From Spartobacteria bacterium (lineage in GTDB: Bacteria; Verrucomicrobiota; Verrucomicrobiia; Chthoniobacterales; UBA10450), in NCBI GenBank assembly GCA_003167555.1, contig PMSN01000011.1, positions 310,001 to 374,000 on the forward strand: DNA of 64,000 bases. The letters are read 5' to 3'. Every line of letters starts with the position of its first letter. Positions within the stretch are counted from its first letter, which is position 1. The notes under the pieces are model-generated. The model was given only the letters and a program-made list of their open reading frames with translations. It did no database searches and was not told where the DNA came from. Position numbers and translations under genes: made by a program. Shown here piece by piece: positions 8,541 through 52,602 of this stretch.

Positions 8541-8727
8541 ATGGTTTCCTTTGGTTTGGTTTCTAATGCTTCGTGCGCGGAGCCGCCGGTGCGCTTAAAC
8601 ATTTTTTGATTCGCCAGATTTTCGGCCATCGCGGCTGCTTTTGCATAATTCGAAGAAAATGCTGGCGGCCCAATTTCTAAAACACTACAACGCTCTCCTC
8701 GGCAGTTGTTTCGAAACCGGTCTTCTT

Positions 8728-31807: not shown

Positions 31808-32533
31808 ATGGCGAATTTTTTTCCACGCTGGACAAATTGGCTTCCGCTGAAAATTGCGGTCTGCGGCGTGGTGATCGTTTGCGGGCTGACCGCAGCGACC
31901 TGGTATTACGTCACGCCGAAATATACGCGCGTCGGTTATCAACCGATCCAGCCCGTGCCGTTTCCGCACGATATCCATGTCTCGCAACTCGGGATGGATT
32001 GCCGTTACTGCCACAGCTTCGTCGACGTCGCCGCGCATTCGAATTTGCCGAACACGCAAGTCTGCATGAATTGCCACACCCAGGTGCAGAAGGACAACCC
32101 GAAACTGGAGCCGGTTCGCGCGAGCTGGAAAAGCGGGCAGCCGATCGAGTGGGTCCAACTGCATCGCACGCCCGATTACGTTTATTACGATCACTCCGCG
32201 CACGTGAATCGCGGCATCAGTTGCGCGAGCTGTCACGGCCAGGTGAATCACATGCCGGTGGTTTATCACGCGAAGCCCCACAGCATGGCGTGGTGCCTCG
32301 AGTGCCATCGCCATCCGGAAAATTTCCTCCGGCCTGAAACGCAAATCACGAACTTGGATTGGAAACCGGATTGGGAAAAACCGGCCGAGTTCGTGGCGAA
32401 ATACGGCCAGCCGAAAGACGCGGCGGATGATTGGTCGAAGAAGGAGAAGCTGACCCAGCTGGAGATCGGGCGAACTTTGAAGGAACGCTGGAACATTCAA
32501 CCGCCGCTGAGTTGCCAGGGGTGCCACCGATGA
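31808..32533 (+). CDS. actA: alternative complex III pentahaem cytochrome c subunit
   Basis: The 241-residue protein has one N-terminal membrane helix (about 13-33) and five CxxCH haem c sites: C65-H69, C86-H90, C139-H143, C163-H167 and C236-H240. That number and placement match ActA of ACIII, a quinol:electron-acceptor oxidoreductase that replaces the bc1 complex. The haems carry electrons on the periplasmic side to cytochrome c or directly to an oxidase. Extra His residues between the sites can serve as second ligands. Its stop overlaps the actB start as ATGA, and six more act-type genes follow. Confidence 0.95.
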   Translation: MANFFPRWTNWLPLKIAVCGVVIVCGLTAATWYYVTPKYTRVGYQPIQPVPFPHDIHVSQLGMDCRYCHSFVDVAAHSNLPNTQVCMNCHTQVQKDNPKLEPVRASWKSGQPIEWVQLHRTPDYVYYDHSAHVNRGISCASCHGQVNHMPVVYHAKPHSMAWCLECHRHPENFLRPETQITNLDWKPDWEKPAEFVAKYGQPKDAADDWSKKEKLTQLEIGRTLKERWNIQPPLSCQGCHR

Positions 32534-35500
32534 AACGCGTCTTCGAGCATCCACCAGAAGCACTCACCGGGAAGCGTTACTGGCGCAGCCTCGGTGAGCT
32601 GAGCGACACGCCGGAATTTCGCGGCTGGCTCGAACGGGAATTTCCCGCCGGCGCGGCCCAGCTCGAAGGCGATGATTGGTCGCGCCGCGGCTTTTTGAAA
32701 TTGATGGGCGCGTCGATGGCGCTCGCGGGTTTCGGCCTGTCGAGCTGTCGCCGGCCCGAAGCGCACCTGGTTCCGTTCACGAAAAGCGTCGAATGGGCGA
32801 TTCCAGGCAAGGCGCTCTATTATGCGACCGCGATGCCGCGACGGACCGGGGCCATTCCGCTCGTCGTGACGACTCATGACGGCCGGCCATCGAAGATCGA
32901 CGGCAATCCGCTCCATCCCGCGAGTGGCGGCGCGACCGACGCGTTCGCGCAGGCTTCCATCCTCGATCTTTATGATCCGGCGCGCTCGAAGCGCTTCGTC
33001 GAAAAAGGCGAGCGAGATGAAAAGGGGACGAAGGTTGAAAATTTCGAGCCGCGCGATCGGGCGGTCTTCGAAAAATATCTCGGCGACCTTCGCACGAAGA
33101 TCGCGGCCGATGGCGGCGCCGGTCTCGCGTTCCTCGTCGAAGAACTGCATTCGCCCACGCGGGAACGTTTGCGCGCGGAACTCCAGAAGACCTATCCCAA
33201 GATGCGGTGGTGCGTCTATGACCCGCTGATGACCGAAGCGCAAAGCTTCGCGACGCAACTCAGCTTCGGCGATAACGCCCGCCTCATCCCGCGTCTCGAA
33301 CGCGCCGATGTCGTGCTGGCGCTCGACAGCGATTTCCTTGATTGCGGCGAAGGCGATATTGCCGGCGTTCGCGGCTTTTCATCGCGGCGTCGCATCGGCA
33401 CGGCCAAGGAAACGATGAATCGCCTCTACGTGGTCGAGAATCGTTTCACGCTCACCGGCGCGATGGCAGACCATCGGATGCGTTGTCCCGCGAGCCAGAT
33501 CGCGGCCTTCGCGCATGCGCTCGCGGGAAAAATCGCGGCAGCCACGAAAGACGAAGGATTGTTTTCCACCATCGCGACGTTGACCGCGCCAAAGGACGCG
33601 ATGGTGTTCGACGAACAATGGCTGACGGAAGTGGCGAACGATCTCGTCTCGAAGCCCGGCGCGAGTCTGGTCCTGGCGGGAGGACATCAGCCGGTGGTCG
33701 TGCAGTTGATCGCTTACGCGATTAACTCCGCGCTCAAGAATATTGGCGCGACCCTGATCGTGCGGGAGTTTGTCCGCGCGCCAAAGACGAACAGCATTCT
33801 GCAACTGGCCTCGGAAATAAATTCCGGCCGGGTGAAGCAGCTTTTCATTTTCGGCGGCGATCCCGTTTACAACGCTCCGAAAGCGGTTACCCAAAATCTG
33901 GGTAAAGAGCAGCCTGGGCAGGAGAAGGCGCCGAGAGGGCCGGTTGATTGGGTCGATCTCCAGAAAAAAGTTCCGGACGTCGTCCGGGTCGGTCATTTCG
34001 AGGACGCGACGTCCGCCTTGAGCACGTGGCATGTTCCGGCGGCGCATTACCTGGAAGCGTGGGGTGACGCGCTCACGTCGGAAGGCGCTTACCTCGCGAT
34101 TCAACCGATGATCCTGCCGCTCTTCGGCGGCATGTCCGAGATCGAGCTGATGAACGCGGTGCTCGGCCGCCCGAAAGTGGATGGACCGGAACTGGTGCAA
34201 GAAACATTTCGCGCGACGGCGCCTCCCGGAGATTTCGCGGCGGCGTGGACGCGGCTTCTGCGGGACGGTTTTGCCTCGCATGTCGCACTGAAAGACAAAC
34301 CACCGAAGTTCAACGCGAACAACGCGGGCGGCGTCGCCCACACCCTCTGGACGACGGTGCCCAATCCGTCGCTCGATTCTCCCGAGATCGTTCTCGTGCG
34401 CAGCTACGCGATGGACGACGGCCGTTACATTAATAACGGCTGGCTCCAGGAGTTGCCCGATCCGATTACAAAGCTGACCTGGGACAACGCGGCCTTGATG
34501 AGCCCGGTGTTCGCCCAGCGCCGTGGCATTGAAACCGGAGACCTCGTCAACATCGCCATCACGGAAACATCGCTGGACGCGCACGAGAAGCCGATCCGGC
34601 GCGAGCTGGTCATCGCCGCGCTGATTTCGCCGGGGCACGCGGATACTTCGATCTCGATCGCCCTCGGCTACGGACGCAAGAAGACGGGACCCATCGGCGA
34701 AGAAGCCGGCTTCGACGGGTTCCTCCTCCGCACCAGCTCGAACCCGCATTTCATTGCGGTCGATGCAAAGACTGTGACGAGCGTCAAAGTGACGAAAGCC
34801 GGCGGGACTTATCCGCTTTCAATCACGCAGGATCATTGGAGCATCGAAGGCCGTGGCCTCGTGCGCGAGGCGACGATCGAGCGTTATCGCGAAGACAACG
34901 AGTTCGTGAAGAAGATCGCGGGCGATGATGAGTTGCCGGCGAAGTTGCCGAGCCTCTACAGCCATCCGCCACTCGACGCCGCGCAACAATGGGGGATGGC
35001 GGTGGACCTGAATGTTTGCACCGGATGCAGCGCCTGCATCGTTGCCTGCCAGAGCGAAAATAATATTCCGATCGTCGGCAAACTTCAGGTCGGTCACGGA
35101 CGCGCGATGCACTGGCTCCGGCTCGATCGTTATTACGCGAGCGAGAAACAGTTCAACCAGGACAAGGGCGAGTATCCGGAGAACCCCGAGATCGTGCACG
35201 AACCGATGATGTGCCAGCACTGCGAGAACGCGCCGTGCGAAACCGTCTGTCCAGTCAACGCGACGGTGCACAGCGATGACGGCCTCAACGTCATGGCTTA
35301 CAACCGCTGCATCGGCACGCGGTATTGCGCGAACAATTGCCCGTTCAAGGTGCGCCGGTTCAATTTCTTCGATTACAACCAGCGTCCGGTCGGCAAGAAG
35401 CGCGTGAAAATCCTGGGCAACCTCGGCTTCAATACTTACGAGGAGTATCTCGGGCCGCTGACCGAGAAGGGCGCGCCCGACACGGTGAAGTTGCAGAAGA

Positions 35501-35916
35501 ATCCGAACGTGACCGTGCGGATGCGCGGCGTGATGGAGAAGTGCACGTATTGCGTCCAGCGAATCGAGGAAGCGAAGATCACGGCGCACGTGCGCGCGGG
35601 CGCGTCGGACAAAACGCTCATTCCGCGCGATTCCTTCACGAGCGCCTGCGCGCAGGCGTGCCCGACGGAAGCGATCGTCTTCGGCGACGTGAAAGATCCC
35701 GAGAGCCGCGTTTCGAAGATGAAAAAGCAGGACCGGAATTATCGGCTGCTCGAATATTTGAATGTTAACACGCGCACGAGTTATCTGGCGCGGATCCGGA
35801 ACCCGAATCCAAAAATGCCCGACGCCAGCCGCATCGGCGTCGCGAGTCTCGGGAACGAAAACCACGCAAAGGTCGAGAACGATAATGCCGCAGCGAATCC
35901 GGCGGAGAAACGGTGA
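32530..35916 (+). CDS. actB: alternative complex III Fe-S / molybdopterin-like subunit
   Basis: The 1128-residue protein is a fusion of a molybdopterin-oxidoreductase-like domain (B1) and a four-cluster ferredoxin-like domain (B2), as in ActB. A Tat-type segment SRRGFLKLMGASMALAGFG starts at residue 51, with Cys73 just after it. The Fe-S part begins with CTGCSACIVAC (830-840), then CQHCENAPCETVC, CIGTRYCANNC and CTYC with CAQACP. ActB is thought to face the periplasm and to pass electrons to the haems. The MoCo-like domain of ActB homologues lacks a cofactor in known structures. Start ATG 32530 overlaps the actA stop. Confidence 0.95.
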   Translation: MKRVFEHPPEALTGKRYWRSLGELSDTPEFRGWLEREFPAGAAQLEGDDWSRRGFLKLMGASMALAGFGLSSCRRPEAHLVPFTKSVEWAIPGKALYYATAMPRRTGAIPLVVTTHDGRPSKIDGNPLHPASGGATDAFAQASILDLYDPARSKRFVEKGERDEKGTKVENFEPRDRAVFEKYLGDLRTKIAADGGAGLAFLVEELHSPTRERLRAELQKTYPKMRWCVYDPLMTEAQSFATQLSFGDNARLIPRLERADVVLALDSDFLDCGEGDIAGVRGFSSRRRIGTAKETMNRLYVVENRFTLTGAMADHRMRCPASQIAAFAHALAGKIAAATKDEGLFSTIATLTAPKDAMVFDEQWLTEVANDLVSKPGASLVLAGGHQPVVVQLIAYAINSALKNIGATLIVREFVRAPKTNSILQLASEINSGRVKQLFIFGGDPVYNAPKAVTQNLGKEQPGQEKAPRGPVDWVDLQKKVPDVVRVGHFEDATSALSTWHVPAAHYLEAWGDALTSEGAYLAIQPMILPLFGGMSEIELMNAVLGRPKVDGPELVQETFRATAPPGDFAAAWTRLLRDGFASHVALKDKPPKFNANNAGGVAHTLWTTVPNPSLDSPEIVLVRSYAMDDGRYINNGWLQELPDPITKLTWDNAALMSPVFAQRRGIETGDLVNIAITETSLDAHEKPIRRELVIAALISPGHADTSISIALGYGRKKTGPIGEEAGFDGFLLRTSSNPHFIAVDAKTVTSVKVTKAGGTYPLSITQDHWSIEGRGLVREATIERYREDNEFVKKIAGDDELPAKLPSLYSHPPLDAAQQWGMAVDLNVCTGCSACIVACQSENNIPIVGKLQVGHGRAMHWLRLDRYYASEKQFNQDKGEYPENPEIVHEPMMCQHCENAPCETVCPVNATVHSDDGLNVMAYNRCIGTRYCANNCPFKVRRFNFFDYNQRPVGKKRVKILGNLGFNTYEEYLGPLTEKGAPDTVKLQKNPNVTVRMRGVMEKCTYCVQRIEEAKITAHVRAGASDKTLIPRDSFTSACAQACPTEAIVFGDVKDPESRVSKMKKQDRNYRLLEYLNVNTRTSYLARIRNPNPKMPDASRIGVASLGNENHAKVENDNAAANPAEKR

Positions 35917-36104: not shown

Positions 36105-37565
36105 ATGGACGGCGCAACCACAGCACCAGATATGATCGAGGGCGAAGCAGTTGCTTCGGCCGAGAAGCCGCTGATGCGGGTGCCGCTTGTCTTGAACAAG
36201 CGGAACTTCAGCTGGGTCACCGAGCGCATCGCCGGCGTGATCGAAGCGAACGCGCCGCGCTGGTGGTGGGTCGCATTCGCGATCACTTCGATGGTGGCGG
36301 CGTTCGGCCTCTTCTGTCTCGGCTACCAAATCTCGACCGGCGTCGGCACGTGGGGATTGAATCATCCGGTCGGCTGGGCCTGGGATATCACCAACTTCGT
36401 TTTCTGGATCGGTATCGGACACGCCGGCACGCTCATCTCCGCGATCTTGTTTTTGCTCAGGCAAAAATGGCGCACATCGATCAACCGGGCCGCCGAAGCG
36501 ATGACGCTCTTCGCCGTTATTTGCGCCGCGATTTTCCCCGGCGTCCACGTCGGCCGCGTCTGGATGGCGTGGTATCTTGCGCCGCTTCCGAATAATTACG
36601 GCATCTGGCCGAACTTCCGCAGCCCGCTTCTTTGGGACGTCTTCGCGGTCTCGACGTACTTTTCCGTCTCGGTTCTCTTTTGGTACACCGGCCTGATTCC
36701 GGATCTCGCGACGTTGCGCGATCGCGCCAAGACGAAGATCAAAAAATTGCTCTACGGAATTTTCGCCGTCGGCTGGCGCGGTTCGAATCGCAACTGGCGT
36801 CACTACGAAATGGCGTATCTGCTTTTGGCCGGTCTCTCGACGCCGCTGGTGTTGTCCGTGCACAGTGTCGTTTCCTTCGACTTCGCCACGTCCATCATTC
36901 CCACGTGGCATACCACGATCTTCCCGCCTTATTTCGTCGCGGGCGCGATCTTCGGCGGGTTCGCGATGGTGCTCACGCTTCTCGTCCCGGCGCGCGCGAT
37001 CTACAAACTGCACGACATCATCACGCCGCAACACGTCGACAAAATGGCGAAGATCATTTTGCTCACGGGCTCGATCGTGACCTACGCCTACGCGATGGAA
37101 TTTTTCGTCGCGTGGTACAGCGGCAACCAGTACGAAAAATTCGCATTCTACAATCGCATCTTCGGTCCCTACTGGTGGTACTGGTGGGTCGGCATGCTCT
37201 TTTGCAATATGCTTTCGCCGCAGCTTTTCTGGTTCAAGGCCTGCCGGCGCAACATCTATATCGTTTATTTCGTCTGCATGTGCGTGAACGCCGGCATGTG
37301 GTTCGAGCGTTTCATCATCATCGTCGGCGGATTGCACCGCGACTTCCTGCCCTCGTCGTGGGGAATGTTTTACCCGACCTGGGTCGATATCTGGACCTTC
37401 ATCGGGACGCTCGGAATTTTCACATCCCTCTTCCTCCTTTTCATTCGCTATCTGCCGATGATCGCGATGTCGGAAGTGAAGATCGTGCTCCCGGAAGCGA
37501 ACCCGCATCATGCTTGGCCGGGTGAACATCATCCCGTCGCGGCTGGCGGAAAGGAGAGAAATTGA
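36105..37565 (+). CDS. actC: alternative complex III NrfD-like membrane subunit C
   Basis: The 486-residue protein has about ten transmembrane helices and belongs to the NrfD/PsrC family. Typical features are [19 protein letters not shown] with a conserved His after helix 2, [15 protein letters not shown], and FEHF-like aromatic-rich segments. In ACIII, ActC and ActF form the membrane core and ActC carries the likely quinol-binding site near the periplasm. Its end overlaps the next gene by TTGA. It is separated from actB by a family A element but remains in the same orientation. Confidence 0.95.
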
Positions 37566-38119
37566 GGACGCCTTCCGGAAATAAAGTTTACGGAATGGGC
37601 GCGGAATACCCGAGCGCTTCCGCGCTTTATGAAGCGGCGAAACGCGTGCGCGACTCCGGCTTCAAACGCTGGGACGTCCATTCGCCTTTCCCGATCCACG
37701 GCATGGATGAAGCGATGGGCCTCGGCAAATCGTGGCTGAGCGCGGCTGTGCTCGGAGGCGGCATCACCGGTTTGCTCACCGCGACGATTTTGGAATTCGG
37801 GCCGTCGTGGTTCATCTATCCCCTGATCGTGCACGGCAAGCCGACGAACTGGGCGACGGTGCCCGCGTTTTTCCCGATCATGTTCGAGCTCACCGTTCTC
37901 TTCGCCGCCTTCACCGCGTTTTTCGCGATGCTCATTATGAACGGCCTCCCGCGCTGGTATCATCCCGTGTTTAACTGGCAACGCTTCAGCCGCGCGACCA
38001 ACGACGGATTTTTCCTCATCATCGAAGCGCGCGATCCGCGTTTCACCGAACTCGAAGCGCGCGAGCTTTTGGAACAAAGCGGCGGCGAGCACGTCACCAT
38101 CATCCACGAAGAAGATTAA
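37562..38119 (+). CDS. actD: alternative complex III subunit D (DUF3341)
   Basis: The 185-residue protein matches the DUF3341 family: [45 protein letters not shown], then two membrane helices joined by the [12 protein letters not shown] loop. The N-terminal soluble part faces the cytoplasm in known ACIII structures. The chosen start is TTG at 37562, which overlaps the actC stop; ATG at 37595 would remove part of the conserved first strand. It forms part of the ACIII operon and has no cofactor. Confidence 0.92.
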
Positions 38120-38122
38120 ATC

Positions 38123-38866
38123 ATGATTCGCGGATTCCTTTTCATTTTCGTGCTGACCGGCCTCGCGCTAGTCGCCTTTCTCGGCTTCCGTGGGCAGAAG
38201 AGCACCGGCTCGCCCATCGAAGTTTTCCCCGACATGGTGCGGCAAATGAAAGTGCGCGCCCAAGCGCCGCTCGGATTTTTCGCGGATGGCCGCGGGGCGC
38301 GTGTTCCCGTCGCGGGCACGATGCCGATAGGTTACGAAATGCCGAAGGCCGCGAGCGAGCCAGCGCCCGGCGCGGCGGCGGTCGCCACCGAGATGAACAC
38401 GAAGTCGCATCTCGGATTTAGCGGCAGCCCCGAATATTACGACACGGGAAAAATGGGAACGAACTGGGGAACCGGTTTGCCGGTGCACGTCGACGGTTAC
38501 TTGATGGAGCGGGGGAAACAGCGCTTCAATATCAATTGCGCGGTTTGCCATGGCCCGACGGCCGCCGGCAACGGCATCACCAAGCAATACGGCCTCGCGA
38601 CCGTGGCGACTTTGCAGGATGCGCGCATTCGGAAAATGGCGGACGGCGAAATTTTCAACACGATCACCAACGGCAAGAACACGATGATGGCTTACGGCCC
38701 GAATGTCCCTGTCAGCGATCGCTGGGCAATCATCGCGTATCTGCGCGCGTTGCAGCGCAGCCAGAACGCGACTGTCGCAGACGTGCCGGCGGAACATCGA
38801 GCCGATCTCGACAAGCCGGTGGAAACTAAACCGCCCGAACCCAAACCGGAGACGCCAAAGAAATGA
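38123..38866 (+). CDS. actE: alternative complex III monohaem cytochrome c subunit
   Basis: The 247-residue protein has an N-terminal membrane helix or lipoprotein-like signal (about 1-21) and a single haem c site CAVCHGPTAAGNG. Downstream Met residues in NTMMAYGP can serve as the sixth ligand. It matches ActE, the peripheral cytochrome c of ACIII that takes electrons from ActA. The C-terminus is a Pro/Lys/Glu tail of about 15 residues. It overlaps actF by ATGA. Confidence 0.93.
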   Translation: MIRGFLFIFVLTGLALVAFLGFRGQKSTGSPIEVFPDMVRQMKVRAQAPLGFFADGRGARVPVAGTMPIGYEMPKAASEPAPGAAAVATEMNTKSHLGFSGSPEYYDTGKMGTNWGTGLPVHVDGYLMERGKQRFNINCAVCHGPTAAGNGITKQYGLATVATLQDARIRKMADGEIFNTITNGKNTMMAYGPNVPVSDRWAIIAYLRALQRSQNATVADVPAEHRADLDKPVETKPPEPKPETPKK

Positions 38867-40065
38867 GCGAACGAGCTGACGTGGTGCCTGTGCCCGAGGG
38901 CGAATATTTCGAAGGCAGCCGCTTCGCGGGATTGTCCTTCATCCTGGCTCTGGTCGGACTCGCCGGATTGGCGCTGAGCGTGGTGGGCGCGTTCGTCTCG
39001 CCGCATCAGTTCAGCTTCTCTTGGCTCTTCGCTTTCGCCTTTTATTTCACGCTGCTCGCGGGCTGTTTCTTCTGGATCATCGTCCATCACGTGACCGACG
39101 CGGAATGGTCGGTCGTGGTGCGACGCCAGCTCGAAAACCTGGCGATGCTCCTGCCGCTCATGGCTGTCTTCTTCATCCCGGTGCTGCTCTTCCGCCATCA
39201 CCTTTACGAATGGACCAACATCGCGCCCGGACACGATCCGGTGCTCGACAGCAAGCGCGCTTATCTGAACTGGGATTTCTTCGTGGTGCGCTCGATTTTC
39301 TACTTCGTCTTCTTCACCAGCGCCGCGTTTTTGTTCCGGCGATTTTCTGTCCAGCAGGATCGCGACGGGAATCCCGCTTACACCTTGAAGATGCGGAAGC
39401 TCGCGTTCATCGCGCTGCCGCTTTTCGGCGCTTCGCTCACCTTCGGCGCCTACGACTGGCTCCTCGGTATCGATTACCACTGGTTCTCGACCATGTGGGG
39501 CGTCTACATTTTCGCGGGCGCGGCCGGCTCGTCGATGTCGCTGCTCGTGCTGGTGATCACGGCCCTGCGCAAGGCCGGTTATTTGCAAGAGACGGTCACG
39601 GTCGAGCATTACCACATCATGGGAAAATGGATGCTCTCGTTCACGGTGTTCTGGGCCTACATCGGCTTCAGCCAATACATGCTCATCTGGTACGCGAACA
39701 TGCCAGAAGAGACGGAATATTTTATCCGGCGAAACACCGAATCCTGGAACGCGCTCAGCCTGTTCCTCGTGATCGGGCGCTTTTTTGTCCCGTTCGCGAT
39801 CCTGCTTTTGCGCGGGCCGAAAAAGAAACCGCACCGGCTTTGTCTGATTGCCGGCTGGATTGTTTTCATGCAGCTCGTCGACATCTACATCGTGATTCTG
39901 CCCGCGCTCCACGGCGCCGGTGTGCTCGTCAGCGTTTGGGATTTCATGCCGTTGATCGGCATCGGCGCCACGCTCGCATTTTTTTACCTGCGCATTGTCG
40001 GCAAGACTTCCCTCTTTCCGGTGCGCGACCCGCGCGTCCTCGAATCTCTCCGCACCACTAATTGA
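38863..40065 (+). CDS. actF: alternative complex III NrfD-like membrane subunit F
   Basis: The 400-residue polytopic protein is the second NrfD-like subunit, related to ActC, with about ten helices. Conserved stretches include FYFTLLAGCFFWIIVHHVTDAEWSV, RRQLENLAMLLP and YHIMGKWMLSFTVFWAYIGF. In ACIII structures ActF packs against ActC and is proposed to hold a proton channel. Its stop overlaps the TTG that begins the next frame, although that gene probably starts at the following ATG. Confidence 0.94.
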   Translation: MSERADVVPVPEGEYFEGSRFAGLSFILALVGLAGLALSVVGAFVSPHQFSFSWLFAFAFYFTLLAGCFFWIIVHHVTDAEWSVVVRRQLENLAMLLPLMAVFFIPVLLFRHHLYEWTNIAPGHDPVLDSKRAYLNWDFFVVRSIFYFVFFTSAAFLFRRFSVQQDRDGNPAYTLKMRKLAFIALPLFGASLTFGAYDWLLGIDYHWFSTMWGVYIFAGAAGSSMSLLVLVITALRKAGYLQETVTVEHYHIMGKWMLSFTVFWAYIGFSQYMLIWYANMPEETEYFIRRNTESWNALSLFLVIGRFFVPFAILLLRGPKKKPHRLCLIAGWIVFMQLVDIYIVILPALHGAGVLVSVWDFMPLIGIGATLAFFYLRIVGKTSLFPVRDPRVLESLRTTN

Positions 40066-40070
40066 CCGCG

Positions 40071-40700
40071 ATGCACGACGAACCACTGCAAAAATTCCAG
40101 CCGCGTTCCACGATTTCGACGTGGGTCGGGATCGTGCTGCTTTTTGCTTTCTTCGCCCTGCTCGCGCTGATCGTGATCGGCGCGTCGCCGCGCGGAAACA
40201 CCTACGAGAAGAAGCGCGCGAAAGCTCGCGCGGAGAAACTTCAAGCCGCGCGAGCGGAAATGATGACGGCTCTGACCACCTATGGCTGGGTCGATAAAGC
40301 GAAAGGCGTGGCCCACATTCCGGTCTCCGACGCGATGAAGTTGGCCGTCGCCGAACTGGCGCAGAAAACCCCCGCGCCCGCAAATCCGATCGCAACACCC
40401 GAAGCGCAAACTCCGCCGCCCGCGACTTCGCTATCGCCCGCGGCGTCGCCAACACCGACTGCGAGCACCACGCCGAAACCGACGACCATCACCGGACCCA
40501 CTTCCGAAAGCCACAATCAACCCGCTGCGGCGATCAACCCTCCACCGGCCCCTCCCAATACTCAGCCCGGTCCGTCCTCCACCCCAGCCGCGACTCCGCC
40601 GTCCGCCCCCGCGAAACCGCAAGCCTCTCCTTCGCCTTCCGCAAAATCTTCCCCATCCGCGCCCGCCTCTCCGCTTCCCGTTCGCGGAAAAACGCCATGA
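40071..40700 (+). CDS. ACIII-associated single-span membrane protein with Pro/Ala/Ser tail
   Basis: The 209-residue protein has one transmembrane helix (about 19-39), a charged helix RGNTYEKKRAKARAEKLQAAR and the short block YGWVDKAKGVAHIPVSDAMKLAV. That last block is widespread in small proteins encoded with ACIII or caa3 oxidases and suggests a structural subunit, possibly in the place of ActG. The C-terminal 110 residues are low-complexity Pro, Ala, Ser and Thr. ATG at 40071 is preferred over the TTG at 40062. Confidence 0.75.
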   Translation: MHDEPLQKFQPRSTISTWVGIVLLFAFFALLALIVIGASPRGNTYEKKRAKARAEKLQAARAEMMTALTTYGWVDKAKGVAHIPVSDAMKLAVAELAQKTPAPANPIATPEAQTPPPATSLSPAASPTPTASTTPKPTTITGPTSESHNQPAAAINPPPAPPNTQPGPSSTPAATPPSAPAKPQASPSPSAKSSPSAPASPLPVRGKTP

Positions 40701-40713
40701 CTACGACTTCTAA

Positions 40714-40780
40714 ATTGGTAGGGCGAGACTCTGTCGAGCCGTGCGTTTCCCACGGCTCGACAGAGTCTCGCCCTACCAAT
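40714..40780. repeat. perfect hairpin, family C, between ACIII and the CcoN-like genes
   Basis: The arms at 40714-40743 and 40751-40780 are perfectly complementary over 30 bases with a 7-base loop, starting ATTGGTAGGGCGAG. The stem should be very stable in RNA and could stop or weaken transcription after the ACIII genes, or protect the upstream message from decay. There is no T-run. A diverged copy lies at 22821-22879. Confidence 0.85.
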
Positions 40781-40809: not shown

Positions 40810-42315
40810 ATGAATTCCGACGTCCCAATGAAAGCACCGGAGACCGCTGCGATCGCCACGAGCGCGGAATCGGACGTGACCATTCACGACGTCGAGAAGG
40901 TCGAGCGCGCCTTGATCGACGCGTCGACGCGTTTGCCGGTCCTGTTCTTCTATGCGTCGGCGATTGCGTGGCTTTTGCTCGGCACGCTCCTGGCCGGAGT
41001 GACGTCCTGGAAACTGCACGCGCCGGACCTGCTCGCGAACTACAGCTTTCTCACCTGGGGCCGCGTCCGTCCCGCGCACATGAACGTGATGGTCTGGGGC
41101 TGGGCGTCGATGGCGGGAATCGGGACGGCCATATGGTTGATGGCGCGTTTGTGCCGCACCACTTTGCGGCATCCGCTCTTGCTCATTGGCGGCGGCGCGT
41201 TTTGGAATCTCGGCGTGATGCTCGGCGTCGGCGGAATTCTAGCTGGCGGCAGCACCGGATATCAATGGCTCGAGTTTCCATCCTACGCTTCGATCGTTTT
41301 GTTCGTCGCCTACACGCTGGTCGTTTCGTGGGCGGTGATCATGTTCCGTTTCCGGCGGGGCGATCACATTTACATCACGCAATGGTATCTGCTCGGCGCG
41401 TTCCTCTGGTTCCCGTGGATCTACGGCGCCGCGCAAATCATGCTCTTCGTCGTGCCGGTGCAAGGCGTGATGCAGGCGGCCGTGAACTGGTGGTTCGCGA
41501 ACAATCTGCTCTTCCTCTGGTTCGGCTCCATCGGGCTCGGCACCGCGTATTACATGATCCCGAAAGTGATCGGCCGCCCGGTTTACAGCTATCATCTCGC
41601 GGCGATCGGGTTCTGGACCTACGCGCTCTTTGCCAGTTGGACGGGAATGCAACGGCTCGTCGATGGTCCGTTCCCGGCCTGGATGATCACGGCCAGCATC
41701 GCCGCCACGATCCTCACCATCATTCCAGTCGCGACGGTCGGGCTCAATCATCACATGACGATGCGCGGCTATTTCGGTCTGCTGCGATATAGCCCGACGC
41801 TGCGCTTCACCGTCTTCGGTGCGATCTCCTACACGGTCTTCAGCATGATCGGTGTCTTGATCTCGCTACGGTCGGTCGCGCGTTACGTAAACTTCACGCA
41901 GGCGAGCATCGCCTATTCGCACATGGGGCTGTATGCATTTTTCACGATGGTGATCTTCGGCTCGATGTATTACATCGTGCCGCGTTTGGTCGGGCGCGAA
42001 TGGCGTTACGCTTCCCTGATCAAACTGCACTTCTGGTCTTCGACCTATGGCGTCGGCTTGATGGTGCTCATGCTGCTCGCGGCGGCAATTGCACAGGGCA
42101 GCGCGCTGAATGATCCCGCCCTCACTTTCACGGAAGGCCTGGCGTATGTGCCGATGTATATGCGCGGTCGCAGCCTTTCCGGCGTGCTGTTGACCGTCTC
42201 GCATTGCGTCTTCGCATTTCACTTCGGCCTGATGCTGTTCGGTCTAGGCCGGACGGCGAGTGTTCCGACTTTTCTTAATCCTCAGGAAGAGGAGGCACTC
42301 GAAGCGCGCTTATGA
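40810..42315 (+). CDS. CcoN-like haem-copper oxidase homologue lacking CuB and haem b3 ligands
   Basis: The 501-residue protein has about 12 helices and aligns along its length with cbb3 oxidase subunit I. The low-spin haem b ligands are kept: H90 (RPAHMN) and H371 (AYSHMG). The catalytic site is gone by comparison with remembered CcoN sequences. N231 replaces the helix VI CuB His (WWFANN for WWYGHN), Q281 and R282 replace the His-His pair (TGMQRL for AGPHHL), A275 replaces the cross-linked Tyr, and Y369 replaces the haem b3 His. It should bind one haem b and no CuB. A new His pair is present at 314-315 (LNHHMT). It overlaps the CcoO-like gene by ATGA and may be an electron-relay subunit. Confidence 0.85.
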   Translation: MNSDVPMKAPETAAIATSAESDVTIHDVEKVERALIDASTRLPVLFFYASAIAWLLLGTLLAGVTSWKLHAPDLLANYSFLTWGRVRPAHMNVMVWGWASMAGIGTAIWLMARLCRTTLRHPLLLIGGGAFWNLGVMLGVGGILAGGSTGYQWLEFPSYASIVLFVAYTLVVSWAVIMFRFRRGDHIYITQWYLLGAFLWFPWIYGAAQIMLFVVPVQGVMQAAVNWWFANNLLFLWFGSIGLGTAYYMIPKVIGRPVYSYHLAAIGFWTYALFASWTGMQRLVDGPFPAWMITASIAATILTIIPVATVGLNHHMTMRGYFGLLRYSPTLRFTVFGAISYTVFSMIGVLISLRSVARYVNFTQASIAYSHMGLYAFFTMVIFGSMYYIVPRLVGREWRYASLIKLHFWSSTYGVGLMVLMLLAAAIAQGSALNDPALTFTEGLAYVPMYMRGRSLSGVLLTVSHCVFAFHFGLMLFGLGRTASVPTFLNPQEEEALEARL

Positions 42316-43226
42316 AAGGCATCGTCCCGCTTTTCCTCGGCATCTTCGGCACGTTCGCGTTCTCGTGGGCGGGCCTGGTGCTTATTCCGAATTTCCAAAT
42401 CGGACATCTCGATCCGCAGTCGGACGAAGAGCAGACGGACATTTATCCCATGCCGAAATCCGGCATGGCCGATCGTGGCCGGCGCATCTACGCGGCCAAC
42501 GGTTGCACGTATTGCCACAGCCAGCAGGTGCGCGCGGATTACGCGGCCTCCGACATTGATCGTAAATGGGGCACGCGCCGGAGCGCGCCGCGCGATTATC
42601 TTTTCGAGCGGCCGGTGCTGCTCGGCAAAATGAGAATGGGTCCGGACTTGTCGAACATCGGAAAGCGCGCGCCTTCGGAAGAAGAGAACGCGAGTCCCGC
42701 GCCGCAGACATCGCCCAGTGCAAGTCCGGCCGCCTCGCCCGCGACCTCCGCCGCACCATCAGCGTCACCGTCCGCTTCTCCGGCAAAAGTTGTTGCGGCA
42801 AATTCTCCCGCGGCCGCGCCGACGAGTCCATCGCCCGCCGCATCGCCCAGCGCCGACAAGACTCCCGCCAACGACGGCCCGCCCCAATACAGCGCCGCGT
42901 GGCATCATCGCCATCTTTACAGTCCGCGCAGCGTCACGCTCGATTCGAACATGCCCGCGTATCATTTCCTTTATGAGAAACGCCGCATCAGTGGCGAGCG
43001 CGCTGCGGACGCGTTGAATCTGAGCGCCGCCGACGCGCCTCCGGACGGTTGGGAAATTGTGCCGACTTACGATGCGAAATGTCTCGTCGCTTATCTGATG
43101 TCGCTCGATCAATCACACGATCTCCCAGAAACAAAGGTCGCCACTGGCCCGCCACCATCCGCGCCCGCTCCTTCGCCCGCAGCGTCCGCATCACCGGCGC
43201 CATCACCTGCAAAGGAGGCGAAATGA
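42312..43226 (+). CDS. CcoO-like monohaem cytochrome c with low-complexity insertion
   Basis: The 304-residue protein has an N-terminal helix (about 5-25) and a CcoO-type haem domain: GRRIYAANGCTYCHSQQVR (C65-H69), then RMGPDLSNIG, and later WHHRHLYSPR and SNMPAYHFLYE with the likely Met ligand. Between GPDLSNIG and WHHRHL there are about 65 extra residues of Ala, Pro and Ser, where ordinary CcoO has only a short link. The C-terminus is another Pro/Ala/Ser tail. It overlaps both neighbours by ATGA, so it is surely co-translated with the CcoN-like protein. Confidence 0.88.
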   Translation: MKGIVPLFLGIFGTFAFSWAGLVLIPNFQIGHLDPQSDEEQTDIYPMPKSGMADRGRRIYAANGCTYCHSQQVRADYAASDIDRKWGTRRSAPRDYLFERPVLLGKMRMGPDLSNIGKRAPSEEENASPAPQTSPSASPAASPATSAAPSASPSASPAKVVAANSPAAAPTSPSPAASPSADKTPANDGPPQYSAAWHHRHLYSPRSVTLDSNMPAYHFLYEKRRISGERAADALNLSAADAPPDGWEIVPTYDAKCLVAYLMSLDQSHDLPETKVATGPPPSAPAPSPAASASPAPSPAKEAK

Positions 43227-43993
43227 ACGAGAGCTCGTCCGCTCCAGAGCGTCGCGTCCGGCAAGGGATGGATTACGGCGAAACCGAGGACGTGAATCAG
43301 GTCCACGCCGCCATTCAGCGCGAGAAGCGGGAGCCGCGTGTCGGCCTCGAACCGCTTTCGCTTTGGCTCATTGCGATTTACGGCCTCGCCATCTTTTGCG
43401 GCGGCGCTTATCTGGGTCGCTATTCGGGAAACTTCAGCGGCGACGGTCTTGATCCGCTCGGCGGCGCGCCGCGGTCGAAAAAATCAGCGACCGGTCCGGG
43501 CGGCGCCGGCCCGAGCCAGGAACTTTCGCAAGCCGATCGCGGCAAAAAGATTTTCTCGGCCAACTGCGCGACTTGCCATCAGATGAGTGGCACGGGCGTT
43601 GCCGGCCAATATCCGCCACTCGCCGGATCGGAATATGTGAACGGCGGCACGCGCCGTCTCGGCATGATAGTGCTGAAGGGTTTGCAGGGCCCGCTCACGG
43701 TGAAAGGCATGCAATTCGGTACCGCTGTGATGCAGCCTTGGGACAAGACATTGAGCGACGCGAAGATCGCCGATGTGCTCACGTTTATTAGGCAGGGGTG
43801 GGGGAATAAAGGCGGACCAGTCGTGATGGAGAGTATCGCGGCCTTGCGGAAAGAACTCGCGAGCCATCCGGATTCATTCACCGAGGCGGATCTGAAAGCT
43901 GTGCCGGAAGATGCGAATCTCCCAGGCGCCGAAAAATCCGCGGAGGCCCCGAAACCCGCAGCCAACACCGCGCCGCCGCCGCCAAAAGGGTAG
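43223..43993 (+). CDS. membrane-anchored monohaem cytochrome c (CcoP position)
   Basis: The 256-residue protein has a charged cytoplasmic N-terminus, one helix (about 45-64) and a haem c site CATCH (C115-H119) with GKKIFSANCATCHQMSGTG. Met in VMQPWDKTLSDAKIADVLTFIR is the likely sixth ligand. It stands where a CcoP would be, but has one haem instead of two. The ribosome binding site AAAGGAGG 4 bases before the ATG is the best in the region. It closes the CcoN/CcoO-like trio. Confidence 0.88.
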   Translation: MNESSSAPERRVRQGMDYGETEDVNQVHAAIQREKREPRVGLEPLSLWLIAIYGLAIFCGGAYLGRYSGNFSGDGLDPLGGAPRSKKSATGPGGAGPSQELSQADRGKKIFSANCATCHQMSGTGVAGQYPPLAGSEYVNGGTRRLGMIVLKGLQGPLTVKGMQFGTAVMQPWDKTLSDAKIADVLTFIRQGWGNKGGPVVMESIAALRKELASHPDSFTEADLKAVPEDANLPGAEKSAEAPKPAANTAPPPPKG

Positions 43994-44151: not shown

Positions 44152-45180
44152 ATGATCCGCCACCAAGACCTCGACGATCCGAAAACACGCGAGGTCATCG
44201 TGATCGGTGGCGGCATCGCCGGCTTGTCCGCCGCGATTTATCTCGGACGTGCCCAACGCGACACGCTCGTGATCGATTCCGGCCATTCGATGGCGAAATG
44301 GGAACCCACCGTGGAGAATTATCTCGGATTCGCGGACGGTGTCGCCGGCGAACAACTCCTCAAGAATGGACGGCGGCAGGCGAAGCGCCACGAGGTCGTT
44401 TTTGCCAACGACGAAATCAAATCAGTCTCGTCGGGAAAATCGCATTTTGTGCTGAAAGGGAAAAACAAAACCTACCGCACGAAGCGGCTGCTCCTCGCGA
44501 CCGGCATCTTTCATCTGCCGCCGGAAATTCCCGGCGTGAAGGAATGCCTCGGCCACAGCATGTTTTTCTGCAAGGACTGCGACGGCTATCGCGTGCGCGG
44601 AAAACGGATCGCAATCATCGGCGCGAACAACGAAGCGATTGAGTACGCGCTCGGCATGCTGCATTACTCGGCCTGCGTGATCGTGGCGACGAATGGAAAA
44701 AAGCCCCGCTGGGACAAGCGGCATGCGGAATGGCTGGCCGAATATGAAATCCCGATCGAGCGCAGGCCCATCCGCGACGTTGAGCATCGGAGGCGCAAGA
44801 TTCGTGCGCTGGATTTCGCGGACGGGTCGTGCCTGAAGATCGATTATCTGTTCACGACGCGCGGCGATATTTTTCACAATCGCCTCGCAAAAAAACTCGG
44901 CGCGAAACTCGATTCGGAGGGCGAGATCACAGTGGACCAATGCATGCGCACCAGTGTCCCGCGCCTTTATGCGGCGGGTTGCGTGACGCCGGCGAATTGC
45001 CAGATGATCATCGCCGCGGGTCAGGGCGCGGCCGCGGCGCAGGCGATCAACCGCGATCTTTTTGAGGAAAGCCTGGCGACGCATTCGCTCCAGCGATTTC
45101 GCGAAGCGCAGTTGGCGGACGAAAAAACAATACCGGAGTGCACCGACAAAGTGTCCGGTCGAAGAAGCAGGAGAAAATAA
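44152..45180 (+). CDS. thioredoxin-reductase-like FAD flavoprotein
   Basis: The 342-residue protein has the FAD dinucleotide motif VIVIGGGIAGLSAAIYLGR (15-33), a redox CxxC (C140-K-D-C143, FFCKDCDG) and a late FAD contact YAAGCVTPANCQMIIAAGQG. It belongs to the thioredoxin reductase/AhpF-like family. The second nucleotide-binding motif is AIIGANNEAIEYAL, lacking the usual GxGxxA, so NADPH specificity is unclear. The start ATG at 44152 opens the conserved N-terminus. Its last base is the first base of the ferritin-like gene, pointing to a joint redox function. Confidence 0.85.
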   Translation: MIRHQDLDDPKTREVIVIGGGIAGLSAAIYLGRAQRDTLVIDSGHSMAKWEPTVENYLGFADGVAGEQLLKNGRRQAKRHEVVFANDEIKSVSSGKSHFVLKGKNKTYRTKRLLLATGIFHLPPEIPGVKECLGHSMFFCKDCDGYRVRGKRIAIIGANNEAIEYALGMLHYSACVIVATNGKKPRWDKRHAEWLAEYEIPIERRPIRDVEHRRRKIRALDFADGSCLKIDYLFTTRGDIFHNRLAKKLGAKLDSEGEITVDQCMRTSVPRLYAAGCVTPANCQMIIAAGQGAAAAQAINRDLFEESLATHSLQRFREAQLADEKTIPECTDKVSGRRSRRK

Positions 45181-45491
45181 TGGGATTCGAACAATATCAT
45201 GAGCCGGCCGACGAACTCTCCGCGGAGACGCGCACGTTCGCGCGGATGATCGTGTCGCTCACGGAAGAAGCGGAAGCGATCAATTGGTACGAGCAGCGGA
45301 TGTCGCTCGAGAAAAACAAAAGCGCGCGGGCCATCATGCAGGACGCGCAGAAAGAGGAGTTCAAGCATTTCTCGATGGATCTCGAGTGGCTTCTGCGCGC
45401 GAAACCGAAATGGCGCGAGATCGCGAAGGACGTGCTCTTCCAATCGGGCGACATCGTGAAGCACGGCGACGAGGCGGAGGAAAAAGCGTAG
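45180..45491 (+). CDS. EncFtn-like encapsulated ferritin family protein
   Basis: The 103-residue protein aligns with encapsulated ferritins: YHEPADELSAETRTFARMIVSLTEE, then AINWYEQR and QKEEFKHFSMDLEWL. The ferroxidase ligands of R. rubrum EncFtn (E32, E62, H65) correspond to E30, E60 and H63 with identical spacing. EncFtn dimers oxidise ferrous iron inside encapsulin shells. Here no shell gene is adjacent, and the C-terminus DEAEEKA does not resemble a cargo-loading tail. TAATG overlap with the flavoprotein suggests translational coupling. Confidence 0.8.
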   Translation: MGFEQYHEPADELSAETRTFARMIVSLTEEAEAINWYEQRMSLEKNKSARAIMQDAQKEEFKHFSMDLEWLLRAKPKWREIAKDVLFQSGDIVKHGDEAEEKA

Positions 45492-48098: not shown

Positions 48099-49985
48099 AT
48101 GGACGCTTCCTCTGGCCTCGCACCTCATCCGCACGTCGAACACGATCCGCACCATCACGAGGGCGGGCACGACCACCACGAACTTCCATTCTGGCGGAAG
48201 TACATTATCTCGACCGATCACAAGGTCATCGGGATCCAATACGGCATCACCGGCCTGATTTTTCTTTTCTTCGGTTTCTCCCTCATGATGCTGATGCGCT
48301 GGCAACTGGCCTATCCCGGCCAGGCCCTGCCCGTGATCGGCAACGCGCTCGGCCACCTCTTCGGCCCGGACAGCATGCCGGACGGAAAGATGACGCCGGA
48401 GTTTTATAACTCGTTAGGCGCGATGCACGGCACGATCATGATCTTCCTCGGCATCGTCCCGATCGCCTTCGCGGCGTTCGGCAATTTCGTCGTGCCGCTC
48501 CAGATCGGCGCGCCCGATATGACTTTCCCGAAAATCAACATGGCAAGTTACCAGGCCTTCTTTTTCGGCGGCTGCGTCATGCTCGTCAGTTTCTTTGTGC
48601 CGGGCGGCGCGGCCAAAGGCGGATGGACTTCCTACACGCCGCTCGCCGTGATCGCGGACAAGGGCCCGGCCTACGATCCTGTTTTCAACGGCCAGACGCT
48701 CTGGCTCATCGGTTTCATCCTGCTCATCACTTCATCGCTCCTCGGCGCGATCAATTTCATCGCCACGATCATTCAGCTCCGCGCCAAGGGAATGACCTGG
48801 ATGCGCCTGCCGTTTTTCGTCTGGGCGCAATTCGTAACTGCGTTCCTGCTCCTGCTCGCGTTTCCGCCGCTCGAATCGGCCGTCGTCATGCAACTCATGG
48901 ATCGCGTGGCCGGCACCAGCTTTTTCATGCCGAGCGGTCTCGTGATAAATGGCGTGCCCCTGCACATCAGCGGCGGCGGCAGCCCGCTTCTCTGGCAGCA
49001 TTTGTTTTGGTTCCTCGGCCACCCGGAAGTCTACGTGCTGATTCTTCCCGGCATGGGTATCGTCGCGGAGATTATCGCGAACAACACGCGCAAGCCGCTC
49101 TGGGGTTACAAGTCGCTCGTCTTCGCGGCGCTGGTGCTGGGATTCCTTTCCTTCATCGTCTGGGCCCATCACATGTGGCTCACGGGCATGGGCTCAACCG
49201 TGAGCGCGTTTTTCCAGACGACCACGATGATCATTTCGATCCCATCGGTCATCATCCTGAGTGCGTTCTTTATTTCACTCTGGGGCGGTTCCATTCGGTT
49301 CAACGTCCCGATGCTTTTTGCGACCGCCTTCCTTCCGATGTTTGGAATCGGCGGGCTCACCGGCATTCCGCTCGCCTTTAATTCCGCCGATCTTTACCTC
49401 CACGACACCTATTACGTCATCGCGCATTTCCATTACATCGTCGCGCCGGGGACGATCTTCGCCGTCTTCGCCGGAATTTATTTTTGGTTCCCGAAAGCGA
49501 CGGGGCGGCGGATGAACGAGTTCTGGGGCAAGGTGCATTTCTGGCCGTCGCTCATTTGCATGAACATCATCTTTTTGCCGATGTTCCTCCAGGGAATGCT
49601 CGGCATGCACCGCCGCTGGTACGACGGCGGGCAGGGTTGGACGTTCGCGAACGAAAAAGTCTGGGGCCTGAGCGGCTTCGAATGGAACACGCCGATCTCG
49701 ATCGCGGCGTGGGTGATGGGCCTGGCGCAGATTCCGTTCATCATCAATTTCTTTTGGAGCATGAAGCACGGGAAGAAAGTGAACGACAATCCGTGGGAGG
49801 CGACGACGCTCGAATGGACCGCGCCTTCGCCGCCGCCGCACGGGAATTTCGAAGTGGCGCCGGTCGCTTATCGCGGCCCCTACGAATACAGCCTGCCCGG
49901 CCGCGAAACTGATTTCACGATGCAAAACGAACCGATGCGCGAGAGCGATCGCAAAGCCTACGAAGCCGCCGCCGCTGTTCACTAA
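48099..49985 (+). CDS. coxA: cytochrome c oxidase subunit I, A-type (caa3)
   Basis: The 628-residue polytopic protein has an intact active site. Haem a ligands are H110 (AMHGTIM) and H445, haem a3 ligand H443 (AHFHYIV), CuB ligands H308 (LGHPEVY), H357 and H358 (VWAHHMW), with cross-linked Tyr312 and the proton-channel Glu310. It reduces oxygen to water and pumps protons. The cytoplasmic N-terminus is unusually His-rich (about 11 His in the first 27 residues). It starts the cox operon and is divergent from pilT across 185 bases. Confidence 0.97.
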   Translation: MDASSGLAPHPHVEHDPHHHEGGHDHHELPFWRKYIISTDHKVIGIQYGITGLIFLFFGFSLMMLMRWQLAYPGQALPVIGNALGHLFGPDSMPDGKMTPEFYNSLGAMHGTIMIFLGIVPIAFAAFGNFVVPLQIGAPDMTFPKINMASYQAFFFGGCVMLVSFFVPGGAAKGGWTSYTPLAVIADKGPAYDPVFNGQTLWLIGFILLITSSLLGAINFIATIIQLRAKGMTWMRLPFFVWAQFVTAFLLLLAFPPLESAVVMQLMDRVAGTSFFMPSGLVINGVPLHISGGGSPLLWQHLFWFLGHPEVYVLILPGMGIVAEIIANNTRKPLWGYKSLVFAALVLGFLSFIVWAHHMWLTGMGSTVSAFFQTTTMIISIPSVIILSAFFISLWGGSIRFNVPMLFATAFLPMFGIGGLTGIPLAFNSADLYLHDTYYVIAHFHYIVAPGTIFAVFAGIYFWFPKATGRRMNEFWGKVHFWPSLICMNIIFLPMFLQGMLGMHRRWYDGGQGWTFANEKVWGLSGFEWNTPISIAAWVMGLAQIPFIINFFWSMKHGKKVNDNPWEATTLEWTAPSPPPHGNFEVAPVAYRGPYEYSLPGRETDFTMQNEPMRESDRKAYEAAAAVH

Positions 49986-49994
49986 TCCCGCGCC

Positions 49995-50870
49995 ATGGAA
50001 ATTCCATACACAGTCACCGCCCGGCCCGATACCGGACTTTGGAACGCGAAGGTCGGCATCTGGCTTTTCCTTGCCTCGGAAGTGATGCTCTTCGGCGGAT
50101 TGTTTTCCGCCTACGTTTTTCTCCGGCTCGATGCGGACCCCGGCGCCTGGCCCCACGGATTGCTGAACGTCCCGGTCGGGACGATGAACACGGCGATTCT
50201 GATCGTTTCCTCCGTCACGGTGGTGATGGCGTGGGCGTCGCTCAAGATGCGGAGGTTCCGTGCCTATTGGTGGTACATGCTCGTCACCATTTTGTGCGGC
50301 GTGATCTTCCTGGGAGTGAAGCTCATCTACGAGTGGCCTCAGAAATTCGAGCACTTCGGCGCTTTCATTAAAAAAGACGCCCTCGAGAAATATGAGCCGT
50401 ATCTCGGGAATCATCACCTCGCCGAGAAAGGACTTCCGCCGCGGACCGAAATCAGCGGTCACTTGCACAATCACGAGGCGCTCCACGACGAAAACGTGAA
50501 GGAGTATGAGATTGCGCTCGATCCTGTAAATGCTGATCCGGCCAACCCGGCGATGGATCGCCCACATTTCTTATACATTCCGCCGACGGAGAAGGTGGCA
50601 AAAATAGAGAAGGCAGATGTTGAGTACGCGAACATGTTTCTGCCCAAGCACAGCGCATATTTCGCCAGCTATTTCACGATTACGGGCCTCCACGGATTGC
50701 ACGTGCTCGCCGGCGTAATTGTCTTCACTTATCTCTGGCTGCCCGTCGGAACGAAGCTTTACAAGCGCAACCCGGAGCATCTCGCCAATCGAGTTGAGGT
50801 CGCGGGGTTATTCTGGCACTTTGTAGATCTGATTTGGATCTACGTTTTCGCGCTGTTTTATCTGCTTTAA
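49995..50870 (+). CDS. coxC: cytochrome c oxidase subunit III with hydrophilic insertion
   Basis: The 291-residue protein matches subunit III: GIWLFLASEVMLFGGLFSAY with the conserved Glu, NTAILIVSSVTVVMA, and GLHGLHVLAGVI with VAGLFWHFVDLIWIYVF. Between helices three and four (about 118-216) it carries about 100 hydrophilic residues rich in His, Glu and Lys that the usual 200-residue protein lacks. Subunit III stabilises subunit I. It lies 9 bases after coxA. Confidence 0.93.
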   Translation: MEIPYTVTARPDTGLWNAKVGIWLFLASEVMLFGGLFSAYVFLRLDADPGAWPHGLLNVPVGTMNTAILIVSSVTVVMAWASLKMRRFRAYWWYMLVTILCGVIFLGVKLIYEWPQKFEHFGAFIKKDALEKYEPYLGNHHLAEKGLPPRTEISGHLHNHEALHDENVKEYEIALDPVNADPANPAMDRPHFLYIPPTEKVAKIEKADVEYANMFLPKHSAYFASYFTITGLHGLHVLAGVIVFTYLWLPVGTKLYKRNPEHLANRVEVAGLFWHFVDLIWIYVFALFYLL

Positions 50871-51432: not shown

Positions 51433-51689
51433 AAACGAAATTGATCGCCGCGTTCCTGCTCGTCCTCGGCTCGCAAATGGGTCAGGCGATCGCTTGTTCC
51501 GTTTGTTTCGGCGCGCGCGATGCGAAATCGACCGAGCACATGGCCGTCGCCATTTGGGTGATGATGGGAGTGATCATGTCGGTCATGGGCGGAGTGGGCG
51601 CATTCGGTTTTCATATCTGGCGGCACGCGAATACGCCGCTCGAGCCGCACCAGGAATTGACCGACGAAAACCTCGATCAATATGAGTAG
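51429..51689 (+). CDS. small exported CxxC membrane protein of the cox operon
   Basis: The 86-residue protein has a signal-like first helix, then CSVCFGARD with a CxxC pair, a second helix (about 40-62) and an acidic tail. The CxxC would lie on the periplasmic side, close to the membrane. It sits directly before coxB, whose CuA site needs two reduced cysteines and copper, so a copper or thiol chaperone role is possible. The last 8 bases overlap coxB. No named family is recognised. Confidence 0.75.
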   Translation: MKTKLIAAFLLVLGSQMGQAIACSVCFGARDAKSTEHMAVAIWVMMGVIMSVMGGVGAFGFHIWRHANTPLEPHQELTDENLDQYE

Positions 51690-52602
51690 CCTCGCCCTGA
51701 TCAACGAACTCATCGGCCTGCCGCCGAATGCTTCCGAGCACGGCTACCAGATCGATCACATCATCGAGTTCTGCCACTGGTTCATGGGCGCGCTCTTTCT
51801 CGGTTGGTCCGTCTTTTTCATTTACGTCCTTCTGCGTTTCCGCAAAGGCAAACATCCCGTCGCGGACCACGAAGGCGTGAAGAGCGGCATCTCGACGCAT
51901 CTGGAATTTGCCGTCGTCCTCATCGAGGCGGTGTTGCTCGTCGGGTTTGCCATTCCGCTTTGGGCCAAGCGGGTCAATCAATTTCCCGAGACCAAGGACG
52001 CGATTCTCGTCCACGCCGTCGGACAGCAGTTTAACTGGAATTTTCATTTACCCGGGCCCGACGGACAGTTCGGCCGGCGCGAGATCGCGCTTGTTTCCAA
52101 TTCGAATCCGCTCGGCTTGGACCCGAACGATCCCGCGGGAAAAGATGACATCGTCGTGCTTGGCGAACTTCATGTGCCGGTCGGCCGGCCGGTCATCATC
52201 GAGCTTTCCTCGAAGGACGTGATCCACAATTTCGCGCTCCCGCACATGCGCATGGCGCAGGATGCGATCCCCGGCCAAATCATCCCGATGTGGTTCAAAC
52301 CGATCAAGACGGGCAACTATGAAGTTGTTTGCGGGCAGCTCTGCGGCCTCGGCCATTACGGAATGAAAGGGATGCTCGTCGTGGACAATCCCGAGGAATA
52401 TCAGGCGTGGCTGAAGGAACGCGTCGAACTATCCGGAGCGCAAAGCGCCCCGGCGCCGACTGATCGTCCACCGGGCGAACCGCCAGTCGGACCCACGCCC
52501 GGAACGATCCCGCCTCCCGGCGCGCCCAAAACGGAAAATCCGACCGCCCAACCACAAGACAAACCCGCCGCGCCGCCGGCTTCGCCCAGTCCCAGCGCTT
52601 AG
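51682..52602 (+). CDS. coxB: cytochrome c oxidase subunit II with CuA site
   Basis: The 306-residue protein has two helices (about 30-52 and 74-95) and a cupredoxin domain. CuA ligands are visible: H182 (VIHNFALP), C217 and C221 (CGQLCG), H225 and M228. The usual Glu between the two Cys is Gln. It accepts electrons from cytochrome c and passes them to haem a. No fused cytochrome c domain is present; instead the last 70 residues are Pro-rich. It is the last cox gene rather than the first, which is uncommon. Confidence 0.95.
   Translation: MSSLALINELIGLPPNASEHGYQIDHIIEFCHWFMGALFLGWSVFFIYVLLRFRKGKHPVADHEGVKSGISTHLEFAVVLIEAVLLVGFAIPLWAKRVNQFPETKDAILVHAVGQQFNWNFHLPGPDGQFGRREIALVSNSNPLGLDPNDPAGKDDIVVLGELHVPVGRPVIIELSSKDVIHNFALPHMRMAQDAIPGQIIPMWFKPIKTGNYEVVCGQLCGLGHYGMKGMLVVDNPEEYQAWLKERVELSGAQSAPAPTDRPPGEPPVGPTPGTIPPPGAPKTENPTAQPQDKPAAPPASPSPSA

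Follow-up and report, generated by a model that had tools for sequence, protein, structure and literature searches.

C-type oxidase genes linked to ACIII have been noted for methanotrophs and Opitutaceae (PMC8498564, citing Refojo 2010), and the methanotroph locus, or the organisms that carry it, has been published as having a cbb3-type oxidase (PMC6688271, PMC8498564, PMC10205796, PMC11102522), which has been used to explain methanotroph O2 affinity (PMC6688271). The active-centre Glu of C-family oxidases (E323) has been called mandatory (PMC5492636). Electrons from ACIII are described as reaching the oxidase via a sixth ActA haem in Flavobacterium johnsoniae and via an extra caa3 haem in Rhodothermus marinus (PMC8552683). 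We analysed a stretch of 64,000 nucleotides (the window; positions 310,001 to 374,000 of contig PMSN01000011.1) from a genome of the Chthoniobacterales (Spartobacteria-type), in which a gene at 40810..42315 on the plus strand encodes a CcoN-like pseudo-oxidase subunit I.

The open reading frame of this gene was confirmed (501 aa). Residues 47-444 of its product matched Pseudomonas stutzeri CcoN (3mk7) in a phmmer search of the PDB (E 5e-36), with ~24% identity over the full-length alignment, and Pfam COX1 (PF00115) matched at E 4e-52; the score against the TIGR00780 ccoN equivalog was 150 bits, below the cut-off of 583. An AF2 model (pLDDT 88.9, pTM 0.90) had 3mk7_A as its best solved structure in Foldseek (TM 0.91). 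PF00115, AF2 and Foldseek thus all give the protein the 12-TM COX1 fold of haem-copper oxidase subunit I, and the end-to-end likeness to cbb3 subunit I that an earlier sequence-only reading of this DNA had claimed was borne out. Ligand positions were paired with P. stutzeri CcoN1 (3mk7) by phmmer, by MAFFT with homologues and by hhalign, and the three alignments agreed. Both low-spin haem b ligands are kept (H90 for H60 and H371 for H347 of 3mk7). At the high-spin site, N231, Q281 and R282 occupy the positions of the CuB ligands H207, H257 and H258, A275 that of the cross-linked TM7 tyrosine Y251, and Y369 that of the haem b3 ligand H345. The residue losses proposed by the sequence-only reading therefore stood up to the profile and structural comparison with 3mk7. 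Two glutamates are lost as well, since the position of E122 is Q152 and that of the active-centre E323 is I347. The same ligand substitutions are fixed across the window's family, and this fixation, together with the E-values and the AF2 and Foldseek fit, argues that the loss is not a matter of chance. By these residues, the protein was probably once the catalytic subunit of a cbb3-like oxidase linked to ACIII and would now be unable to reduce O2; it is expected to lack activity in vitro.

The genes around it lie on the same strand. Upstream are those for ActA, the pentahaem cytochrome c of ACIII (31808..32533; five CXXCH), ActB, the Fe-S/molybdopterin-like subunit (32524..35916; start inferred, order conserved in relatives), ActC, the NrfD-like quinol-site subunit (36105..37565), ActD (37562..38119), the monohaem cytochrome c ActE (38123..38866), the NrfD-like ActF (38863..40065) and ORF7 (40062..40700), a small protein that has one TM segment, the motif YGWVDKAKGVAHIPVSDAMKLA and a tail rich in Pro/Ala, has no Pfam or NCBIfam match and was detected in many but not all loci of the relatives. 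The conserved ORF7 motif, YGWVDKAKG.AHIP.SDAMKLA, is found in many act operons and also at 8553-8924 of a methanotroph locus (L096). Directly downstream of the CcoN-like gene (N) are genes for a CcoO/FixO-like monohaem cytochrome c (O; 42312..43226; CXXCH at residue 65, Ala/Pro/Ser-rich insert) and a CcoP-like membrane-anchored monohaem cytochrome c of 257 aa (P; 43223..43993; CXXCH at residue 115, AAAGGAGG ribosome site). Haem c-bearing CcoO and CcoP in one operon, as C-family (cbb3) oxidases require, are thus both present with one CXXCH each; with its single CXXCH the CcoP-like protein is not a canonical dihaem CcoP. The position of N downstream of ActA-F, with O and P directly after it, fits an ACIII-linked N-O-P module. 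The claim of tight operon coupling held on the downstream side, with a 4-bp overlap of N and O. It did not hold upstream: a 109-bp gap separates ORF7 from N and contains a REP-like perfect palindrome (40714..40780, no strand assigned), whose arm has ~93 matches in the genome versus 0 for a control.

Beyond the CcoP-like gene, genes for a TrxB-like and a ferritin-like protein precede the A-type oxidase genes, which encode CtaD, subunit I with intact ligands (48099..49985; GHPEVY, HHMW, HFHY), CtaE, subunit III (49995..50870), and CtaC, subunit II (51682..52602), which has the CuA motif CGQLCGLGH and is without a haem c motif. The ferritin-like gene (45168-45491), beside the TrxB-like reductase, is of the EncFtn-like encapsulin cargo type, and no encapsulin shell gene (PF04454) was found in this genome. 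In this genome, CtaD was the only A-type subunit I and the only haem-copper oxidase found with a catalytic site; there is one CcoN-like gene, the degenerate one, and neither a second, catalytic CcoN nor a bd oxidase was found. With this gene complement, the window protein is not the terminal oxidase.

The gene is widespread and well kept. Among the matches listed, the closest named loci come from uncultured Verrucomicrobia and Spartobacteria MAGs and are at most 87% identical. A CcoN-like orthologue is present in 24 of the 25 genomes of the window's family and across the class, ACIII-linked homologues also occur in Planctomycetota, and almost every locus on a long enough contig keeps the order ActABCDEF-(ORF7)-N-O-P, which supports the linkage to ACIII that had been claimed. 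True ccoNO fusions (~720-860 aa) form a separate group of ~24-29% identity. Within the genus, median dN/dS was 0.088 for N, 0.098 for ActB, 0.115 for ActF, 0.054 for ActC, 0.133 for CcoO and 0.047 for CtaD by Nei-Gojobori, values that are approximate because dS is high. Thus, the CcoN-like gene is under purifying selection, which supports the earlier suggestion of selection for a non-catalytic role. From catalytic to degenerate N, conservation drops most in TM6-TM9 (1.15-1.40 bits), where the CuB histidines lie, and the drop is smallest in TM1-TM3 (0.43-0.54). Degenerate copies do evolve faster than catalytic orthologues, as their long branches show, and this is what a decaying relic without function would predict; we give such a relic next to no probability given dN/dS of ~0.09, intact frames in congeners, and the family- and class-wide presence of the gene. 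Decay of the reading frame was rejected on the same dN/dS and frames. A degenerate CcoN-like ORF of only 346 aa accompanies O and P in one locus (L100, genome G114), where no act genes were found in the stretch read; it is possibly further decayed.

The sequence-only reading had proposed a tree of homologues as a check for a clade that always lacks the ligands. Homologues with 42-56% identity to the window protein keep the full catalytic set, that is H207, Y251, H257, H258 and H345 with H60 and H347 (loci L021-L025, L041-L057, L118 and L119), so there is no single clade that is always inactive. Every copy read from the window's family is degenerate and carries N, A/S, Q (rarely T or M), R and Y/W at the five high-spin positions, and at least nine other families have degenerate copies with other residues there; local motifs leave little room for misalignment at these positions. 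An Opitutaceae copy (L178, Ct408_bin80; local sequence HEHSARIHH) is intermediate, as it keeps the haem ligands and H207 and has S, A and R for Y251, H257 and H258. One genome of the window's family carries a second, catalytic CcoN-like copy (L025, G009:C78), and the 12 kb read there showed no act genes. E323 is absent from catalytic ACIII-linked CcoN (L041-L057, L021-L023), which have Q, I, L, T or A at this position and could be the 'unknown group' of Muntyan 2015 that PMC5492636 mentions.

On the ActB+ActC tree, catalytic and degenerate copies are interleaved, and the state of the haem-copper site changes 12 times. There are 9 changes without the long rows, with a lower bound of 9 after weak branches of this reduced tree are collapsed, and 13 losses if the ancestor was catalytic. 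The CcoO+CcoP tree gives 8 state changes. Thus, the haem-copper site was lost at least 8 separate times (8-12 changes on two marker trees). A single inactive clade was rejected on ActB+ActC (p-AU 2e-7) and on CcoO+CcoP. The tree of N itself groups most degenerate copies (support 98), in conflict with both marker trees. We read this grouping as attraction, because the degenerate copies have the longest branches, and the conflict remains. Differential loss from an ancient pair of N genes is strictly conceivable, but O, P and Act show no such grouping.

Retention of H90 and H371, here and in most of the family, would suit a specialised electron carrier based on low-spin haem b, or a quinol-interacting cytochrome b, in which electrons pass between quinone, the haem c of CcoO and another partner. 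Within the window's family, H60 is kept in 38 of 40 and H347 in 40 of 43 different sequences. However, the module is kept in four lineages of this family that lost one or both ligands (residues at H60/H347: L016 H/Y, L019 A/H, L020 Y/D, L039 H/Y) and in nearly all degenerate lineages outside it, where the low-spin ligands are lost too, and we regard the carrier reading as unlikely. Because so many degenerate lineages lost these ligands, haem b has not been preserved by selection across the module and appears dispensable for its role, and the weight that had been put on low-spin haem b as a functional point does not survive. In the window's family, low-spin haem b is probably still bound as an inherited structural or redox cofactor; a redox role there is possible because both ligands are still common.

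The emptied pocket might instead have gained a new reaction or ligand (another metal, a quinone or a proton path) through N231, Q281, R282 and Y369 as new residues. Among family members 68-100% identical, N231 and R282 are invariant and Q281 and Y369 nearly so. Other lineages put unrelated residues at the same positions, which gives no shared new site, and packing of an emptied pocket would explain the conserved set equally well, so that we consider a new pocket function quite improbable. The pair H314-H315, which the sequence-only reading took to be new, offers no help, as catalytic homologues have an invariant H315 and an almost invariant H314; the pair is ancestral, a trait inherited within the ACIII-linked group. 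As a replacement site it was rejected because catalytic homologues share it.

The haem c motifs persist where the haem b ligands do not. All 83 CcoO that were readable beside a degenerate N retain CXXCH (a few loci are without a readable CcoO), as do 70 of the 73 CcoP in degenerate modules, the other three being short reads of the gene; these motifs remain even where N has no haem ligand left. ActA was pentahaem in 94 of 95 read, and haem c was never seen in CtaC adjoining the modules in the same survey. With no sixth ActA haem and no caa3 haem here, and with the haem c of CcoO and CcoP kept, we propose N as a scaffold and O and P as a bridge. On balance we favour N as a pseudo-oxidase membrane scaffold that would serve as a docking site for two haem c subunits between ACIII and the adjacent aa3 oxidase, roles that we infer from gene order and cofactor retention. 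N would keep CcoO and CcoP, the two cytochromes c, suitably spaced in the membrane, quinol electrons would pass through ACIII (ActB/ActA, perhaps ActE) to the haem c of CcoO/CcoP and from there to CuA in the aa3 oxidase of the neighbouring genes, and ACIII-to-aa3 transfer would occur in a supercomplex or at short range; both the complex and this electron route are predictions. The broader proposal, that an oxidase core was turned repeatedly into a cofactor-poor or cofactor-free pseudoenzyme that an ACIII-cytochrome c-aa3 supercomplex retains as an obligate structural subunit, we hold at even chances. An A-type oxidase is present in 43 of 43 genomes with a degenerate N and 17 of 23 with a catalytic N (Fisher p 0.001, in a test that ignores relatedness and with 7 genomes assigned by congener). 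A bridge of O and P is not unique to degenerate modules, because catalytic ones have the same O and P and some also lie beside ctaCDE (L023, L147, L160). In this genome, the REP palindrome that lies between N and the act genes counts against the scaffold. N lies between the haem c genes and ctaCDE and keeps its fold without cofactors, as would also be expected if apo-N were an assembly or gating factor that only inserts or matures CcoO/CcoP or aa3, outside the working chain. Selection on N equals that on structural Act subunits, however, and O and P are the partners of N in known cbb3 enzymes, which makes a purely assembly-related role very unlikely.

Five genomes of one family (2.2-2.5 Mb), which we take to be Methylacidiphilaceae, have 2-4 pmoA genes each. 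N was read in three of them (L087, L094, L096) and has no haem or Cu ligand; that of L096 still folds as CcoN (pTM 0.87, TM 0.86 to 3mk7_A). The methanotroph N has ACIII on one side and an intact aa3 on the other. No working ccoN was found by a TIGR00780 search of all five genomes, and the ACIII-linked N is the only CcoN-like gene in the methanotroph genomes searched. On these genes, the published cbb3 assignment appears to be wrong for the genomes searched, and the cbb3 explanation of the O2 affinity of verrucomicrobial methanotrophs (PMC6688271) needs revision. More widely, gene names serve to assign terminal oxidases and, through these, to infer O2 affinity; across a large group of bacteria, from soil and freshwater dwellers to acidophiles, the gene named ccoN cannot encode an oxidase. 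With catalytic orthologues ~50% identical, the parallel losses constitute a natural experiment on non-catalytic roles of oxidase subunits and open the role of supercomplex scaffolds to testing. If true, our proposal describes a recurrent route from oxidase to scaffold inside one operon.

We found no paper on a CcoN without ligands or on its recurrence in a literature search that covered few subscription papers. Novelty is thus divided: the fold, the operon and the adjacency of cbb3-like genes to ACIII were known already (PMC8498564, PMC6688271), and the pseudoenzyme state and its recurrence are new as far as we found. Compared with P. stutzeri CcoN (3mk7), the window protein has the same fold, aligns over its full length, and shares CcoO/CcoP-like operon partners and the low-spin ligands, but is without the CuB ligands, the cross-linked Tyr, the haem b3 ligand and E323, and its CcoP-like partner has one haem c. 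The ACIII-linked C-type oxidases of Opitutaceae, other Verrucomicrobiota and Planctomycetota are encoded by an orthologous operon with N 42-56% identical; catalytic N in this group (L021-L023, L041-L057) keeps the full ligand set, whereas the window's family lost the site. The methanotroph 'cbb3' occupies the same operon place beside ACIII and its active site is also absent (three genomes read), but its N lost the low-spin ligands as well, both of which the window N kept. In the ACIII-aa3/caa3 supercomplexes of F. johnsoniae and R. marinus (PMC8552683, PMC8361435), ACIII also feeds an A-type oxidase; no N-O-P module has been described in them, and the terminal haem c is in ActA/ActE or caa3.
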